DNA from: Dehalococcoidia bacterium
GTDB lineage: Bacteria; Chloroflexota; Dehalococcoidia; SAR202; UBA11138
DNA length: 6,347 bases
Reading direction: 5' to 3'
NCBI GenBank assembly: GCA_012270625.1
Contig: JAAXHZ010000229.1
Span: 1-6,347, forward strand
The notes below the pieces were generated by a model. The model was not told the origin of the DNA and made no database searches. It saw only the letters and a program-made list of their open reading frames with translations. Both the position numbers and the translations under genes were made by a program. Each line of letters opens with the position of its first letter. Position 1 is the stretch's first letter. This document shows, piece by piece, positions 1,396 to 6,347 of the stretch.

Positions 1396-1548
1396 ATGCT
1401 GATCGGCGTACTGCTAGTGATAGTTGGAGTGGTCCTGCTGCTGGAGCGGCTGGACATTATCGAGGGCGGTCTGGGTACATACTGGCCGCTGATACTGGTC
1501 GCGGTCGGCGCGGCCATGATCTTCGACAGGCTGCGAAGGCGAAGCTGA
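1396..1548 (+). CDS. Small membrane protein, LiaI/LiaF-like transmembrane domain (50 aa)
   Basis: This short gene runs from ATG at 1396 to TGA at 1546-1548 and is preceded by AGGAG at 1385-1389 with 6-nt spacing, a strong ribosome binding site. The protein starts MLIGVLLVIVGVVLLLERLD. It has a hydrophobic helix at about residues 1-16, then a charged and glycine-rich turn (ERLDIIEGGLGT). The motif YWPLILVAVGAAMIF (about 29-43) forms a second helix, and the basic tail DRLRRRS follows. The pattern helix - short turn with D/I/G - WPLxLxxxG helix is characteristic of the LiaI/LiaF-like transmembrane domain (DUF5668 type). That domain occurs alone or fused to cell-envelope stress proteins. The basic C-terminus suggests a cytoplasmic tail by the positive-inside rule. 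It is probably co-transcribed with the dehydratase 43 bp upstream, but no functional link is obvious. The real-gene call rests on the RBS and the coherent domain pattern. Confidence 0.68.
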   Translation: MLIGVLLVIVGVVLLLERLDIIEGGLGTYWPLILVAVGAAMIFDRLRRRS

Positions 1549-2929: not shown

Positions 2930-4555
2930 TTACTCCACGATCTGGAATGGAGGCATCATGTTGGGAACGACAACCTCGAGAAGCACTGGCGCGTCCGTGT
3001 TCAGCGCAACCTCAAGAAGCTCCGCGAAGCCCTCCGGCTCGGTCCTCATTCCAACAGCTCCGAAGGATTCGGCCAGTCTGACGAAGTCGGGATTGTGAAG
3101 GTCGGTGCCTATGTAGTTGCCGCCATACCTGTGGGTCTGGTCCCATTCGGATGCGCCGAACGCGCTGTTGTTGAACACGACGGCCACGGTATTGATCCCA
3201 TGCCTGATGGCAGACGAAAGCTCCTGGGGACTGTACATGAATCCACCGTCCCCACAGAGCGCGACAACCTTCCTGTTGGGCTGCCCGACCTGTGCGCCAA
3301 GCGCTGTCGGAAAAGCGTATCCCAACGTGCCAAAGTAGCCGGAGGTGATGTAGGTCTTCGGCTGACGCACTTCGAAGAAGATGTTGCTCCAGTAGCCGAT
3401 GTTGGTAACGCCGCTCACAACTATCGCGTCGTCAGGCAGCGCATCGCGCATGTCCTCGATAATCCGCGCCTGGTCCGGCGCCAGCGACCTCATGCTGGAT
3501 GAGAACTCGGAGCGGAACTTGGAAATACGCTCAGCCCCCGACGGTCTGGTCCGGCTCGATCCTGACCTTTCCAGAACACCGAGCAGCTGCGCCGACGCGG
3601 TCTTGGCGTCCGCTGCGATTCCCAGCTCTGTTGGAAGATTGCGCCCTATCTCGTCCGGATCGATGTCTATGTGAACGATCCTCGGCAGCTCGCCGTCTGG
3701 CAGCTCCCTGAACAGCAGCCGAGTACCTATCGCCAACAGCACATCGGAGTCAGGCAGAACTATGTCCGCGGGTCCCACTGATGCGTAGTTGGTGCCTACG
3801 TAGAACGGGCTGTTCTCGGGAACTACTCCTTTGGAGTTCTGCGTTCCCATCACCGGGGCTTGCAGCAAGTCGGCTAGCCGCAGCGCCTCGTCCCCAGCGC
3901 CTGAGATTCGCGCTCCCCCGCCGACCATGATGGCCGGTCGCTCAGAGGAGGCGAGAATTTGAGCGGCCCGCTCCACGTCTCCCACCTCAGCAGCCTGAGG
4001 CGCATACTCCACTGGGGCGATGATTTCCGCTTCTCCCACAGCTGCCAGCGTGTCAGGTGGTATCTCCAGCTCGACCGGTCTGGGTCTGCCCGTCTTGAGA
4101 TGCCTGAACGCCTCGTGGACCGCGCCAGGTATCTCCTCCACGCGAGTTACGCGATGGTTCCACTTGGTGAGCGGACGGAACACGTCGAGCTGGTCTTCGA
4201 CCTCGTGAAGCTGCCCCTCACGCCTCCCAAGCGACTGGCTCTCTATCTGTCCTGAGATCAGCAGCACCGGCGACGATGACGCATACGCCGTACCAAGTCC
4301 CGCTCCAGCATTGATGGCTCCCGGGCCGGGGACCGCCATCGCCACCCCCACCTTGCCAGTAACTCTCGCGTATCCATCGGCCATGTAGGTCGTAGCCTGC
4401 TCGTGTCTCACGTGGACCAGCCGGACGGCGTCTCTGTACTCGTGGAGCGCGTCGAAGGCCGCCATTATCTGAACGCCAGGCAGCGCGAAGACGGTATCGA
4501 CGCCTTCTGCTGCCAGCTGCTGAACCAAGGCTTGCGCGCCTGTCACTCTAGGCAT
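2930..4555 (-). CDS. Thiamine-diphosphate-dependent enzyme, acetolactate synthase large-subunit-like
   Basis: This 541-residue protein has the three-domain layout of the acetolactate synthase/benzoylformate decarboxylase family. The N-terminal PYR domain (about 1-170) carries the cofactor-activating glutamate E52 in RHEQATTYMADGYAR, then PGPGAINA and GRPRPVELEIP. The central domain is at about 190-330 (PAIMVGGGAR; IVHIDIDPDEIGRN). The C-terminal PP domain (about 360-541) has the ThDP/Mg2+ motif GDGG at 435-438 ending in NN at 462-463. Known reactions of the family are decarboxylation of 2-oxoacids and carboligation of the resulting activated aldehyde. L411 (FGTLGYAFP) occupies the position that is usually Met in biosynthetic acetolactate synthases. 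No ilvN-like regulatory subunit follows, so a catabolic decarboxylase or ligase is at least as likely as branched-chain amino-acid synthesis. AGGGG 7 nt upstream of the ATG overlaps the stop codon of the hydratase alpha gene, 10 bp away, which implies coupled translation. Confidence 0.93.
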   Translation of the reverse strand: MPRVTGAQALVQQLAAEGVDTVFALPGVQIMAAFDALHEYRDAVRLVHVRHEQATTYMADGYARVTGKVGVAMAVPGPGAINAGAGLGTAYASSSPVLLISGQIESQSLGRREGQLHEVEDQLDVFRPLTKWNHRVTRVEEIPGAVHEAFRHLKTGRPRPVELEIPPDTLAAVGEAEIIAPVEYAPQAAEVGDVERAAQILASSERPAIMVGGGARISGAGDEALRLADLLQAPVMGTQNSKGVVPENSPFYVGTNYASVGPADIVLPDSDVLLAIGTRLLFRELPDGELPRIVHIDIDPDEIGRNLPTELGIAADAKTASAQLLGVLERSGSSRTRPSGAERISKFRSEFSSSMRSLAPDQARIIEDMRDALPDDAIVVSGVTNIGYWSNIFFEVRQPKTYITSGYFGTLGYAFPTALGAQVGQPNRKVVALCGDGGFMYSPQELSSAIRHGINTVAVVFNNSAFGASEWDQTHRYGGNYIGTDLHNPDFVRLAESFGAVGMRTEPEGFAELLEVALNTDAPVLLEVVVPNMMPPFQIVE

Positions 4556-4565
4556 TGTTGTTCCC

Positions 4566-5216
4566 CTAGTCGGCTTCGACTGGCTGAAGCTCTGGCCGCA
4601 GCGCGTCGGACACGCCGATCATACTGTCCCGCGTTACCAGCTCCGCAAGCTCTTCCTCGGACATGCCTTGGCTGCCATCGGGCCGACGCGGAAGTACCAG
4701 ATATCGCAGATCCGCGGTGCTATCGACGACGCGGACCTGGACGTCATCACCCACCTCGAGCCCAAACTCACGCATCACCGCGCGTGGTTCGACAATCGCC
4801 CGCTGCCTGTACGAAAAGCTCTTGTACCAGTCCGGCGGCGGCCCCAGCAGCGCGGTCGGGTAGCACGAACACAGCGTACACACGACCAGGTGATGTACGT
4901 CCTCGGTATTCTCCAGCGCCGCAAGCTCGGCATCATGGGTCAGTGAGTAACCCATTTCACTCACTGCCGACCGAGCATCCGCTATAAGTCTAGACTTGAA
5001 ATCGGGATCCACCCATGTCCTGGCTACGACCTTAGCGCCGTCAGATGGCGAACGGGACCGCACACGGTGTATCTGTTCCTCGACCTCACCAGCCTCGATC
5101 ACACCCTTCTCGACCAGAAGCTCGTTGATTGCGAGCGCTCGCTTGGCGCGGTAGCTCAACTCGATGTCCAGCTGCGTACCAGGATGTTCGGATTCGTCGT
5201 GATGATCGTCGCTCAT
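4566..5216 (-). CDS. Nitrile hydratase alpha subunit, cobalt-type (or thiocyanate hydrolase gamma-like)
   Basis: This 216-residue cytosolic protein binds the non-corrin metal of the hydratase that turns nitriles into amides; thiocyanate hydrolase gamma subunits are close relatives. The metal claw is VCTLCSC with C113, C116 and C118. By family rule C116 and C118 become sulfinic and sulfenic acids, and Thr at 114 marks the cobalt type. Other alpha signatures are ALAINELLVEKGVI (28-40), VVARTWVDPDFKSRL (63-77), GPPPDWYKSFSYRQR (125-139), VEPRAVMREFGLEVGDD (142-158), RYLVLPRRP (171-179) and LVTRDSMIGV (193-202). An in-frame ATG at 5252 would add 12 residues. I prefer 5216 because AGGGG at 5222-5226 precedes it by 5 nt and the beta-C gene stops just 1 bp before it. 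The residue pair after the claw's Tyr-Pro is Thr-Ala, where many nitrile hydratases have Trp-Pro. The N-terminus is His/Asp/Glu-rich (SDDHHDESEH). Confidence 0.9.
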   Translation of the reverse strand: MSDDHHDESEHPGTQLDIELSYRAKRALAINELLVEKGVIEAGEVEEQIHRVRSRSPSDGAKVVARTWVDPDFKSRLIADARSAVSEMGYSLTHDAELAALENTEDVHHLVVCTLCSCYPTALLGPPPDWYKSFSYRQRAIVEPRAVMREFGLEVGDDVQVRVVDSTADLRYLVLPRRPDGSQGMSEEELAELVTRDSMIGVSDALRPELQPVEAD

Positions 5217-5217
5217 G

Positions 5218-5529
5218 CTATCCCCTCGGCTCCAGCCACTGTTCATAGACATCTACCAGCAGCAAGTCTCGGCTCCCTTCACTGTACCGCTCGCCCCAGA
5301 TCTGCGTCGGGTCGAACTCCACCTGGTAGAGCAGGCGTCTGGGAATACCGTCCCCTCCGTGCGCCCTTGACTCCGGGTTAAGAAACGGCCCGCTGATGGC
5401 GCGAACGACTCCGCGCTTGCCCTTGATGAACCATGGCGTCCGGTGGTGATGCTCGACCTCGTCCGATCTGATCGTCACCAAGTCGCCGACACTGAACATT
5501 CCGGGTTCCGCAGAAAAAACTACTCCCAT
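5218..5529 (-). CDS. Nitrile hydratase beta subunit, C-terminal half as a separate protein (thiocyanate hydrolase alpha-like)
   Basis: This 103-residue protein covers only the C-terminal SH3-like barrel domain of a nitrile hydratase beta subunit. Visible markers are FSVGDLVTIR (12-21), HHHRTPWFIKGKRGVV (27-42), SGPFLNPESRA (46-56), LLYQVEFDPTQIWGE (66-80) and LLLVDVYEQWLEP (89-101). The family versions are GD-V-R, HTRxPxYxRGxxG, LYxVxFxxxxLWG and vDLWExYLEP. R30 corresponds to the conserved beta arginine in the HTR motif that contacts the oxidised cysteines of the alpha claw (family knowledge). Its ATG overlaps the stop of the beta-N gene by 10 bp in another frame, with a weak GGAAG about 4 nt upstream, so coupled translation is likely. 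M11 at 5499 is an alternative start. Thiocyanate hydrolase and toyocamycin nitrile hydratase also divide beta into two polypeptides. A frameshifted single beta gene is the alternative. Confidence 0.87.
   Translation of the reverse strand: MGVVFSAEPGMFSVGDLVTIRSDEVEHHHRTPWFIKGKRGVVRAISGPFLNPESRAHGGDGIPRRLLYQVEFDPTQIWGERYSEGSRDLLLVDVYEQWLEPRG
5222..5226 (-). promoter_or_regulatory. Ribosome binding site that decides the alpha-subunit start
   Basis: On the minus strand AGGGG lies 5 nt before the ATG at 5216-5214. It overlaps the last codons of the beta-C gene, whose TAG is at 5220-5218. The upstream in-frame ATG at 5252 has no comparable purine-rich site. This supports a 216-residue alpha subunit that is translationally coupled to beta-C. 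Confidence 0.7.
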
Positions 5530-5822
5530 CGTTCTTCCACTTCAGCGGCGCGGACGTCTATATCTTCGGATGTCAGCACACCCTTCTCCACCAGCAGCGT
5601 CTCCAGGGATGCGGACCAGCGTTCGTAGTAGGAAGACGCCTCATACTCCTCAGGAGCCATTGACTCGATGCCGCGCCTTAGCTCATCCACGTTCACGAGA
5701 TCATGGCTTCTCAGCACGCCTACGAGCGCATTCGTCATGTATTCCCAGTCTGCCCACTCGTGGGTAGTCTGGTCGATGAGGTCGTCGCTCGGACGTCCGC
5801 CCATGTCGTGAACACCTGCCAT
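5520..5822 (-). CDS. Nitrile hydratase beta subunit, N-terminal half as a separate protein (thiocyanate hydrolase beta-like)
   Basis: This 100-residue, mostly helical protein corresponds to the N-terminal half of nitrile hydratase beta. The hallmark start GVHDMGG is at residues 3-9. It is followed by WADWEYMTNALVGVL (23-37), DELRRGIESMAPEEY (46-60), the YYERW motif (65-69) and LETLLVEKGVLTSEDI (73-88). R49/R50 fall at the position of the conserved beta arginine that hydrogen-bonds to the modified alpha cysteines in the family. The GVHDMGG start argues that it is a true beta piece rather than the related activator protein (P14K/P15K type), which lacks it. The start is supported by AGGAG at 5830-5834, 7 nt upstream. 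The gene begins 4 bp after the cupin stop and overlaps the beta-C gene by 10 bp. The protein ends in an acidic stretch, VEERWE, just where the inter-domain linker of intact beta subunits would begin. Confidence 0.86.
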   Translation of the reverse strand: MAGVHDMGGRPSDDLIDQTTHEWADWEYMTNALVGVLRSHDLVNVDELRRGIESMAPEEYEASSYYERWSASLETLLVEKGVLTSEDIDVRAAEVEERWE

Positions 5823-5826
5823 CAGC

Positions 5827-6144
5827 CTACTCCTGACCCACTGAGCTGAGCGGATTGACGGTCACTCGACTCAGTATAGCGTCTCCTGTGTTCCTGAACT
5901 GATGCTCCACATCGGGCGGCACAAGTACCGCATCGCCTGCCTTGATCGGGAACTCCTCTCCTTCCACCCAAAGCGCTCCTTCGCCCTCCACGATGTACGC
6001 TTGGTGCTCCCACGGATGAGTGTGCTGTGCGCTCGTCCCTCCGGGTGGGTGCTGCACCCACAGCATTACGTAGTTCGGCACGCCGTCATCCGGCCCCAGA
6101 ACTGGATTCGCGGCGCCATCGACACTCTTGATTACCGGATTCAT
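5827..6144 (-). CDS. Small single-domain cupin protein (cupin_2 type)
   Basis: This 105-residue protein is one beta-barrel cupin domain, probably cytosolic and metal-binding. Cupin motif 1 is seen as GGTSAQHTHPWEHQAYIVEG (35-54), with H41 and H43 as metal ligands. The position usually Glu is Q48, with E46/H47 adjacent. Motif 2 is seen around AGDAVLVPPDVEHQFRNTG (69-87), with H81 as the third histidine. Such proteins range from isomerases and dioxygenases to small-molecule-binding partners, and this one cannot be assigned a reaction. AGGGAGA at 6149-6155 is a good ribosome binding site. The gene starts 15 bp after the 2-hydroxyacid dehydrogenase stop and ends 4 bp before the beta-N gene, so it is an integral operon member. 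A role in handling the hydratase substrate or product, or in metal supply, is speculative. Confidence 0.88.
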   Translation of the reverse strand: MNPVIKSVDGAANPVLGPDDGVPNYVMLWVQHPPGGTSAQHTHPWEHQAYIVEGEGALWVEGEEFPIKAGDAVLVPPDVEHQFRNTGDAILSRVTVNPLSSVGQE

Positions 6145-6159
6145 ATCGTCTCCCTGTGC

Positions 6160-6347
6160 CTAGTCCTGAATATCGTAGTCTTGGGCGACAGCCATAGGAG
6201 CGTCTCCGTTCCATACGCCCTGCATGTTCTCGTATGCAAACTCGGCTCTCCTGAACCAAGTATCCCACGTAGTTCCCGCCGAGTGAGGGGTCACGACGAC
6301 GTTGTCCATCGACAGCAGCGGATGTAACCGTCCCATAGGCGGTGTGA
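6160..6347 (-). CDS. D-isomer-specific 2-hydroxyacid dehydrogenase, C-terminal end only
   Basis: An open minus-strand frame enters at the right edge of the window and ends at the TAG at 6160-6162, giving 61 complete residues. LHPLLSMDNVVVTPHSAGTT is the conserved C-terminal part of NAD(P)-dependent D-2-hydroxyacid dehydrogenases. The histidine in TPHSAG (codon 6283-6285) is the catalytic acid/base of the family. The final helix follows (WFRRAEFAYENMQGVWNGDAP) and then a short acidic tail, AQDYDIQD. The family reversibly oxidises 2-hydroxyacids to 2-oxoacids. The cofactor-binding core and the other catalytic residues (Arg, Glu) lie outside the window, so the substrate cannot be called. It is the first visible gene of the minus-strand operon and ends 15 bp before the cupin start. 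With the ThDP enzyme downstream it suggests 2-hydroxyacid/2-oxoacid chemistry in this operon (inference). Confidence 0.85.
   Translation of the reverse strand, partial: TPPMGRLHPLLSMDNVVVTPHSAGTTWDTWFRRAEFAYENMQGVWNGDAPMAVAQDYDIQD

Follow-up and report, generated by a model that had tools for sequence, protein, structure and literature searches.

A three-gene set of the nitrile hydratase family with a split beta subunit and no adjoining activator gene in a Dehalococcoidia bacterium

We analysed a stretch of 6,347 nucleotides from a Dehalococcoidia bacterium (GenBank assembly GCA_012270625.1, contig JAAXHZ010000229.1; "the window" below means this whole stretch) and find that it encodes a real and widespread three-chain form of a known family, the nitrile hydratases, from a lineage with an unstudied pocket. 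The beta subunit is divided over two genes, betaN and betaC (its N- and C-terminal halves), which precede the alpha gene. No activator gene was found beside the three-gene set by Pfam, NCBIfam and activator-profile scans of the 6,347-nt window only. This absence, seen in scans of the locus and of related genomes, is the most telling feature of the set and was overlooked by the original prediction made from this DNA. Our reading, with a probability of roughly 0.7, is that the set encodes a three-chain cobalt enzyme, a member of the nitrile hydratase family, that works without a separate activator, has betaN as its loading and swapping partner and most likely acts on a neutral nitrile. The anatomy of the set, the conservation of its residues, the lack of activator genes beside it and in related genomes, and its position in the trees were observed directly.

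Anatomy and absence of an activator

The proposal that betaN, betaC and alpha are separate genes, joined by a 10-bp overlap and a 1-bp gap, is borne out by the coordinates of the open reading frames (ORFs), by Pfam matches (Table 1) and by the motifs found (GVHDMGG, YYERW, HHHRTPWFIKGKRG, WLEP and VCTLCSC). We infer translational coupling of betaN and betaC from their overlap; between the stop of betaC and the start of alpha lies a single base (5217), with the ATG at 5216 taken as the alpha start (the mechanical ORF begins at 5252). On the NCBI full-length beta model of 226 positions the two beta pieces correspond to 1-99 and 135-225, so that the break falls between the domains and the inter-domain stretch is the missing part. 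Among solved structures alpha is best matched by the Co-type nitrile hydratases 4ob1 and 1v29 (about 211 bits), with 151 bits for 2dd4_C, the gamma chain of thiocyanate hydrolase (SCNase); for betaC and betaN the matches to the alpha and beta chains of SCNase, respectively, are only marginal (E 0.053 and 0.027). Besides the window's own sequence, alpha homologues reach 89% identity, some Dehalococcoidia standing at 84% (among the 120 matches listed; 8000 candidates scored). Nitrile hydratase alpha resembles leader peptides of ribosomally synthesized and post-translationally modified peptides of the NHLP type, and the window's alpha also matches such a model (TIGR03793, 69.1 bits, above cut-off).

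Most of the nitrile hydratases studied need an activator protein for cobalt loading, according to the available parts of PMC3511329, PMC4709657 and PMC7329996. We built profile models from the activators of fused-beta loci and from the P15K proteins of SCNase loci and scanned every ORF of the collected loci with them. An activator-like ORF (above 15 bits outside the subunits) was present in nine of the 94 betaN-betaC-alpha loci, a count that takes in re-fetched places and the frameshifted locus L029: eight are thiocyanate hydrolases with P15K and the ninth is L174, whose match of 20 bits lies in an ORF that also carries its betaN-like match. A few loci (L023, L186) stop within a few bases of alpha, which places their downstream side outside the data.

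Genome-wide, the activator model nitrile_acc (TIGR03889) was above cut-off in none of the 56 split-bearing genomes without a fused set seen (0/11, 0/4 and 0/41 in three batches; assembly completeness not stated), against 38 of 39 fused-beta genomes (4/4, 15/15 and 19/20, the miss being G971). The batch of 11 consists of G001-G005, G007-G010, G013 and G015, of which G001, G009, G010 and G015 were also scanned for a fused set; the batch of four consists of G022, G122, G256 and G300, and the genomes of the batches of 4 and 41 have a single PF02211 place each. G006, which is not among these genomes, has a fused set accompanied by an activator (L199) apart from its split one, and G017 was excluded because it has no more than a fragment of alpha. 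This search concerned nitrile_acc only, P15K being sought at the loci. Weak nitrile_acc matches in split genomes were betaN copies in all three cases compared (G001, G706 and G1181). Overall, the three-gene group is apparently activator-free.

A characterised counterpart exists in Streptomyces canus CGMCC 13662. As far as the available text of PMC7329996 goes, its AnhD-AnhE-AnhA enzyme is encoded by three genes in the order betaN-betaC-alpha with no activator gene, the N-terminal part of beta being supplied by AnhD and the C-terminal part by AnhE. It matures without an activator; AnhD forms an AnhD2A complex and is a cobalt-swapping chaperone, the apo-enzyme is activated by holo-AnhDA (54 percent) and weakly by holo-AnhEA (12 percent), and AnhA alone is inactive (PMC7329996). 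The window shares with this system the three chains, their order and the free betaN, and no activator gene was found within its 6,347 nt. In the available parts of the literature, the three-subunit activator-free enzymes found were that of S. canus and, in mentions, the toyocamycin enzyme; PMC7193024 gives six nitrile hydratase gene arrangements with three structural genes only in SCNase (with activator), and the split three-gene form is not mentioned in the parts available of PMC2603476, PMC10098168 and PMC4709657.

By analogy with S. canus, and given the conserved residues, metal, assembly, catalysis, chaperone role and substrate class may be pictured as follows. The three chains would assemble (possibly as a dimer of trimers), with alpha holding low-spin Co(III) via CTLCSC. 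The second and third claw cysteines would be oxidized to sulfinic and sulfenic acid, their oxygens clamped by betaN R49 and betaC R30, and water would add to the metal-bound C-N triple bond, most likely turning a neutral nitrile into the amide. Free betaN may form an alpha-betaN complex where cobalt is loaded with no separate activator, and loaded alpha might then swap from this complex into the full one, as reported for AnhD.

Recurrence and place in the trees

A single GTDB contig scan yielded 28 loci. PF02211 was above cut-off in 21/294 genomes of Dehalococcoidia (the class of G001), 104/289 of Alphaproteobacteria (class of G010) and 35/296 of Actinomycetota (phylum of G015), and TIGR03887, the SCNase gamma model, in 9/369 genomes of the class of G014. 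Flanks were fetched for 60 chosen places, mostly short-frame or low-scoring matches; this choice favours the split form, so the split counts are not a random sample. By gene order the 194 loci with alpha fall into betaN-betaC-alpha (94), alpha-beta-activator (46), beta-alpha-activator (26), beta-alpha (8), alpha-betaN-betaC-activator (7), betaC-alpha (4), betaC-alpha-betaN (3), alpha-beta (2) and single cases (4). Taking out 17 re-fetched places leaves 177 loci: 73 split non-SCNase, 79 fused, 12 SCNase, 10 secondarily split (a class that includes L029) and 3 rotated. The 73 include L002 (labelled Planctomycetota), L069 (class of G014) and L185 (S. canus type), and 71 of them are complete, L008 and L197 being cut before betaN at the contig end.

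The genome search suggested along with the original prediction, for the same split arrangement, thus ended in 71 complete distinct non-thiocyanate loci, mostly from Chloroflexota, Alphaproteobacteria and Actinomycetota. At least three phyla harbour split betaN-betaC-alpha sets, a broad assemblage to which a rotated betaC-alpha-betaN form and activator-keeping secondary splits are added. A scan of 15 genomes of the family of G300 found nothing; G300 itself escaped, its contig ending before alpha.

Some loci depart from these patterns. The rotated order belongs to L053, L054 and L055 (Rhizobium and Microvirga plasmids), where the pocket positions hold Lys and Arg, near the SCNase pair; CbtA/CbtB are annotated near two of these loci and a HoxN transporter near one. 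L056, L124 and L184 are SCNase-like sets with fused beta and P15K, and L167 (G734:C3) has genes for betaN and betaC in a stretch where no alpha was found.

Before the first alpha tree, 30 of the 194 loci were dropped (17 re-fetches, nine Caballeronia or Burkholderia near copies, the fragments L027 and L197, and L002 and L186). In this quick tree of 164 rows, the fused and secondarily split rows and L185 lie on one side of a single (starred) branch with support 95, and all remaining split rows, the SCNases and the rotated form on the other. A careful tree was made from 91 of the 164 rows (L013, L023, L178 and L179 excluded as long or partial, others by random draw). Here the window belongs to a 12-row Chloroflexota clade (99/97) beside Actinomycetota split rows (93/80), the fused and secondarily split rows make up one side of a branch (87/76), and the SCNases form a clade of their own (100/100) among proteobacterial split rows. 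L185 is our stand-in for the S. canus enzyme, since the anhD primer encodes MARINDV, the betaN start in L185; in this tree, unlike the window, it has a long branch and groups with the activator-bearing fused enzymes (95/96). A betaN tree (118 rows, 101 columns; 22 activators drawn at random from those above 85 bits, and 6 P15K) has a 100/96 branch that separates activator-free betaN, SCNase betaN and P15K from fused-branch betaN, activators and L185. In the approximately unbiased (AU) test on the careful alpha tree, the p value for all activator-free non-SCNase rows as one clade is 0.097.

In our best trees, then, the window's lineage falls outside both the fused nitrile hydratases and the thiocyanate hydrolases. 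The original prediction had spoken of a third, uncharacterised lineage: a lineage apart is what the trees indicate, but "third" fails, as the S. canus enzyme is already characterised (PMC7329996, as far as available) and split sets extend over at least three phyla. We saw no nesting of alpha within two-subunit enzymes with fused close relatives; split sets make up all of the nearest relatives.

Several observations weigh against the activator-free nitrile hydratase proposed here. The alpha chain passes the nitrile hydratase model TIGR01323 barely (250.3 bits against a cut-off of 249.85), and its relative L001 is just under. In the AU test a tree that joins the window clade to the fused branch does as well or better (by 6.6 log units, p 0.612), which leaves the exact sister of the window clade unsettled, and L185 is not the window's nearest kin in the careful alpha tree. 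The genome of the window beyond the 6,347 nt lies outside the activator search, and an activator there is possible. Among secondarily split sets eight of nine keep an activator (the ninth, L101, has none within the flank), which shows that splitting alone does not remove it and rules out the idea that a split beta by itself ends the need for one. The betaN of the window's lineage has a median of 29.4 bits on the activator model, against 37.2 for fused beta and 56.2 for secondarily split sets; a visibly more activator-like betaN in the window's group is thus not borne out. Finally, relatives of one amidase (that of L058, the only one checked) lie near 0/73 split, 9/79 fused and 2/10 secondarily split loci, even though the split-locus flanks are mostly longer, and the classical nitrile-to-acid route is therefore not supported.

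Table 1. Features of the three-gene set and its neighbours in the window
Feature	Position	Strand	Basis or remark
betaN subunit (nitrile hydratase beta N-terminal half; AnhD-like)	5520..5822	-	100 aa; PF21006 (NHase_beta_N) 82.5 bits, above cut-off
betaC subunit (nitrile hydratase beta C-terminal half; AnhE-like)	5218..5529	-	103 aa; PF02211 (NHase_beta_C) 69.9 bits, above cut-off
betaN/betaC gene overlap, 10 bp	5520..5529	-	ORF coordinates
alpha subunit (AnhA-like)	4566..5216	-	216 aa; PF02979 (NHase_alpha) 259.8 bits, above cut-off
Cobalt claw CTLCSC, alpha residues 113-118	4863..4880	-	3 Cys + Ser invariant in 164 aligned alpha rows
alpha Thr121, position after CSCYP	4854..4856	-	Trp in fused-beta branch; Arg136 in thiocyanate hydrolase gamma
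betaN R49 = betaArg52, Y65 = betaTyr68, W69 = betaTrp72			Alignment residue table
betaN L48 = site of SCNase betaArg90			SCNase numbering and residue table
betaC R30 = betaArg150/157			Alignment, residue table
Small cupin	5827..6144	-	Cupin_2 72.4 bits; upstream of betaN with a gap of 4 bp; also next to the set in G300 (L225)
D-2-hydroxyacid dehydrogenase, C-terminal end, cut by window end	6160..6345	-	Weak NCBIfam matches below cut-off
Thiamine-diphosphate enzyme, acetolactate-synthase-like	2930..4555	-	NF006122/PRK08266 above cut-off; 10 bp downstream of alpha

Pocket, neighbouring genes and likely substrate

The claw is fully conserved (Table 1), and the equivalents of betaArg52 and betaArg150/157 are kept in 159/160 and 163/163 rows with the column filled. 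The same holds for betaTyr68 (160/160), which we take to be an active-site residue of nitrile hydratase. Roles of the claw and the arginines in nitrile hydratase are given in the available part of PMC12646544. The classical Co-type enzymes (1v29, 3qxe) have chains homologous to those of the window, with the metal claw, the clamp arginines and betaTyr68, and differ in their fused beta, their activator gene (NhlE/NhhG/P14K) and the Trp after CSCYP. This Trp occurs in 78 of the 79 fused-branch rows (69/70 fused, with one Phe, and 9/9 secondarily split; some of the fused rows have no activator seen within the flank) and in 0/85 rows outside that branch. Arg takes its place in 12/12 SCNases, 15/15 Actinomycetota, 37/42 proteobacterial and 3/3 rotated rows, and the 12 Chloroflexota rows have Thr (8), Arg (3) or Gln (1). 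The S. canus type, via L185, has Ile here and Phe before betaArg52, where the window has Thr and Leu. SCNase gamma residue 136, which is this same position, is Arg in 2dd4_C and Trp in 3vyg_C, and Arg136 and Arg90 reportedly govern SCNase selectivity. The window's pair, alpha Thr121 with betaN Leu48, corresponds neither to the nitrile hydratase Trp nor to the SCNase arginines. Nitrile or thiocyanate had originally been suggested as substrate; on these residues thiocyanate is disfavoured, because both SCNase pocket arginines are absent, and a neutral nitrile is favoured as the predicted substrate.

The set lies in an operon-like run of 2-hydroxyacid dehydrogenase (cut), cupin, betaN, betaC, alpha, thiamine-diphosphate enzyme and NhaA, with gaps of 15, 4, -10, 1, 10 and 9 bp; the thiamine-diphosphate enzyme is probably co-transcribed with alpha. 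G300 shares the dehydrogenase, cupin, betaN and betaC with the window, its homologue of the dehydrogenase (PF02826, 158 bits) occupying the same position. A narrower form of our reading would be that the enzyme is specialised, for instance for cyanohydrins or for a nitrile-bearing metabolite of a dedicated pathway, and has little activity on standard nitriles. The Leu/Thr pair, unlike both the SCNase pair and the Trp-bearing enzymes, points this way; the dehydrogenase, cupin and thiamine-diphosphate enzyme would fit a route from hydroxynitrile via hydroxyamide and hydroxyacid to oxoacid, and other lineages adjoin GpgS, OtsA/OtsB or GlnII. Nonetheless, neighbours vary among relatives, dehydrogenase and cupin being common only to G300 among the loci compared, and the window is without an amidase to finish the route (Pfam scan). 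The cyanohydrin route is only a suggestion from the neighbours, and the special substrate, though a serious candidate, seems unlikely to us.

Neighbours as a substrate clue were rejected since they differ between lineages and between relatives. In a Chloroflexota subclade (L001-L004, L007-L009; some contigs too short for all neighbours) five loci have a GlnII-type glutamine synthetase upstream, six have RraA-like genes there, and a GNAT gene follows downstream in seven. In L220 (G1322, 8099-10596), the closest relative found in a further scan, which likewise missed G300 (67% alpha identity), OtsA and OtsB (trehalose-6-phosphate synthase and phosphatase) lie upstream of the three-gene set, a second compatible-solute neighbour besides GpgS. 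The latter concerns most Actinomycetota loci (L180-L183, L186, L188-L194, L196, L197), with a glucosyl-3-phosphoglycerate-synthase-like (GpgS-like) gene upstream on the same strand (phmmer); NF010496 is above cut-off in three of five upstream ORFs scanned (L182, L189 and L192, not L186 and L187), and ten of those loci have a SurE-like gene on the opposite strand. We know of no link between GpgS activity and nitrile hydratase-type activity. Elsewhere in the window, a short ORF (1396-1548, plus strand) matches a LiaI-LiaF-like transmembrane region (44.8 bits).

It might also be argued that the enzyme is a thiocyanate hydrolase, turning thiocyanate into carbonyl sulfide and ammonia. SCNase (scnB-scnA-scnC, 2dd4) has the same split into two beta chains and the CTLCSC cobalt claw, and gene coordinates and locus orders bear out the predicted agreement in betaN-betaC-alpha order, which is common to most SCNase loci (eight). 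Most other split lineages moreover have the SCNase-type Arg after CSCYP, and the AU test leaves the window clade joined to SCNase unrejected (p 0.237). SCNases nonetheless have P15K, the pocket arginines Arg136 and Arg90 and a clade of their own, whereas the window has no P15K adjoining its set, lacks both arginines, lies outside that clade in the best tree and scores 175.2 bits against the TIGR03887 cut-off of 291.45, which makes this identity improbable.

Still less probable is an alpha that is by itself a working, self-maturing enzyme, with betaN and betaC only tuning it. This is reported for ToyJ of the toyocamycin nitrile hydratase ToyJKL, likened to the window by its description as a three-subunit enzyme only, whose alpha alone suffices for activity and matures itself as cited in the discussion of PMC7329996 (available part), and it would agree with the lack of an activator in split-bearing relatives. 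Conservation of the tyrosine and of the arginines in betaN and betaC is nearly strict, however, and the S. canus alpha by itself is inactive. Lastly, the view that an ordinary fused beta gene was broken up locally, by a frameshift or by faulty assembly, can practically be dismissed: L029 (G136:C36), from a genome of the same class, does look like a true case, in which two overlapping frames make up a fused-type beta gene, but the window lacks the inter-domain stretch, and the recurrence of the same three separate genes in many genomes (71 distinct loci, or 73 with the two cut at a contig end) is explained neither by chance nor by a sequencing frameshift.

Two possible origins of the activators

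The most interesting lead is a two-origin view of the activators. All 22 nitrile hydratase activators cluster together in the betaN tree (100/99), on the fused-branch betaN side, and the six P15K form a separate group (100/99) that joins SCNase betaN (99/94). A long-branch pull between P15K and SCNase betaN was checked by omitting the latter (52 rows): P15K was still placed with the activator-free rows (100/97), among which its position is then weak (58/33 and 71/72). Since each activator family stands beside the betaN of its own branch, two origins are favoured; a forced single origin is 20.6 log units worse (p 0.213). These placements suggest two independent origins of activators by duplication of betaN, one common origin being less likely though not formally rejected; the trees have no outgroup, and the direction of change is our interpretation. 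The likeness of activator and beta is in print (available parts of PMC3511329 and PMC7329996), the discussion of the latter stating that an evolutionary link needs further evidence, and a double origin was not found in the available literature on these enzymes. In L146 a second betaN copy (5925-6260, minus strand) lies near a betaN-betaC-alpha set, and is perhaps a nascent activator.

Tentatively, and at somewhat less than even odds, the activator-free three-gene enzyme might be the older form of the family, with betaN as both subunit and cobalt-swapping chaperone. Activators would then have been invented twice from the betaN of their own lineage, as nitrile_acc/P14K where beta fused and Trp entered the pocket and as P15K in the SCNase branch, and the window would keep the two-job betaN.

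Record names (nitrile hydratase alpha and two "SH3-like domain" proteins) can hide such a three-chain enzyme. Nitrile hydratases are industrial catalysts, and a widespread, apparently activator-free group offers candidate catalysts that need no activator, the pocket of the window's group being unlike that of either main class studied. Should betaN prove to load cobalt in these enzymes, it may be the ancestor of the activators.

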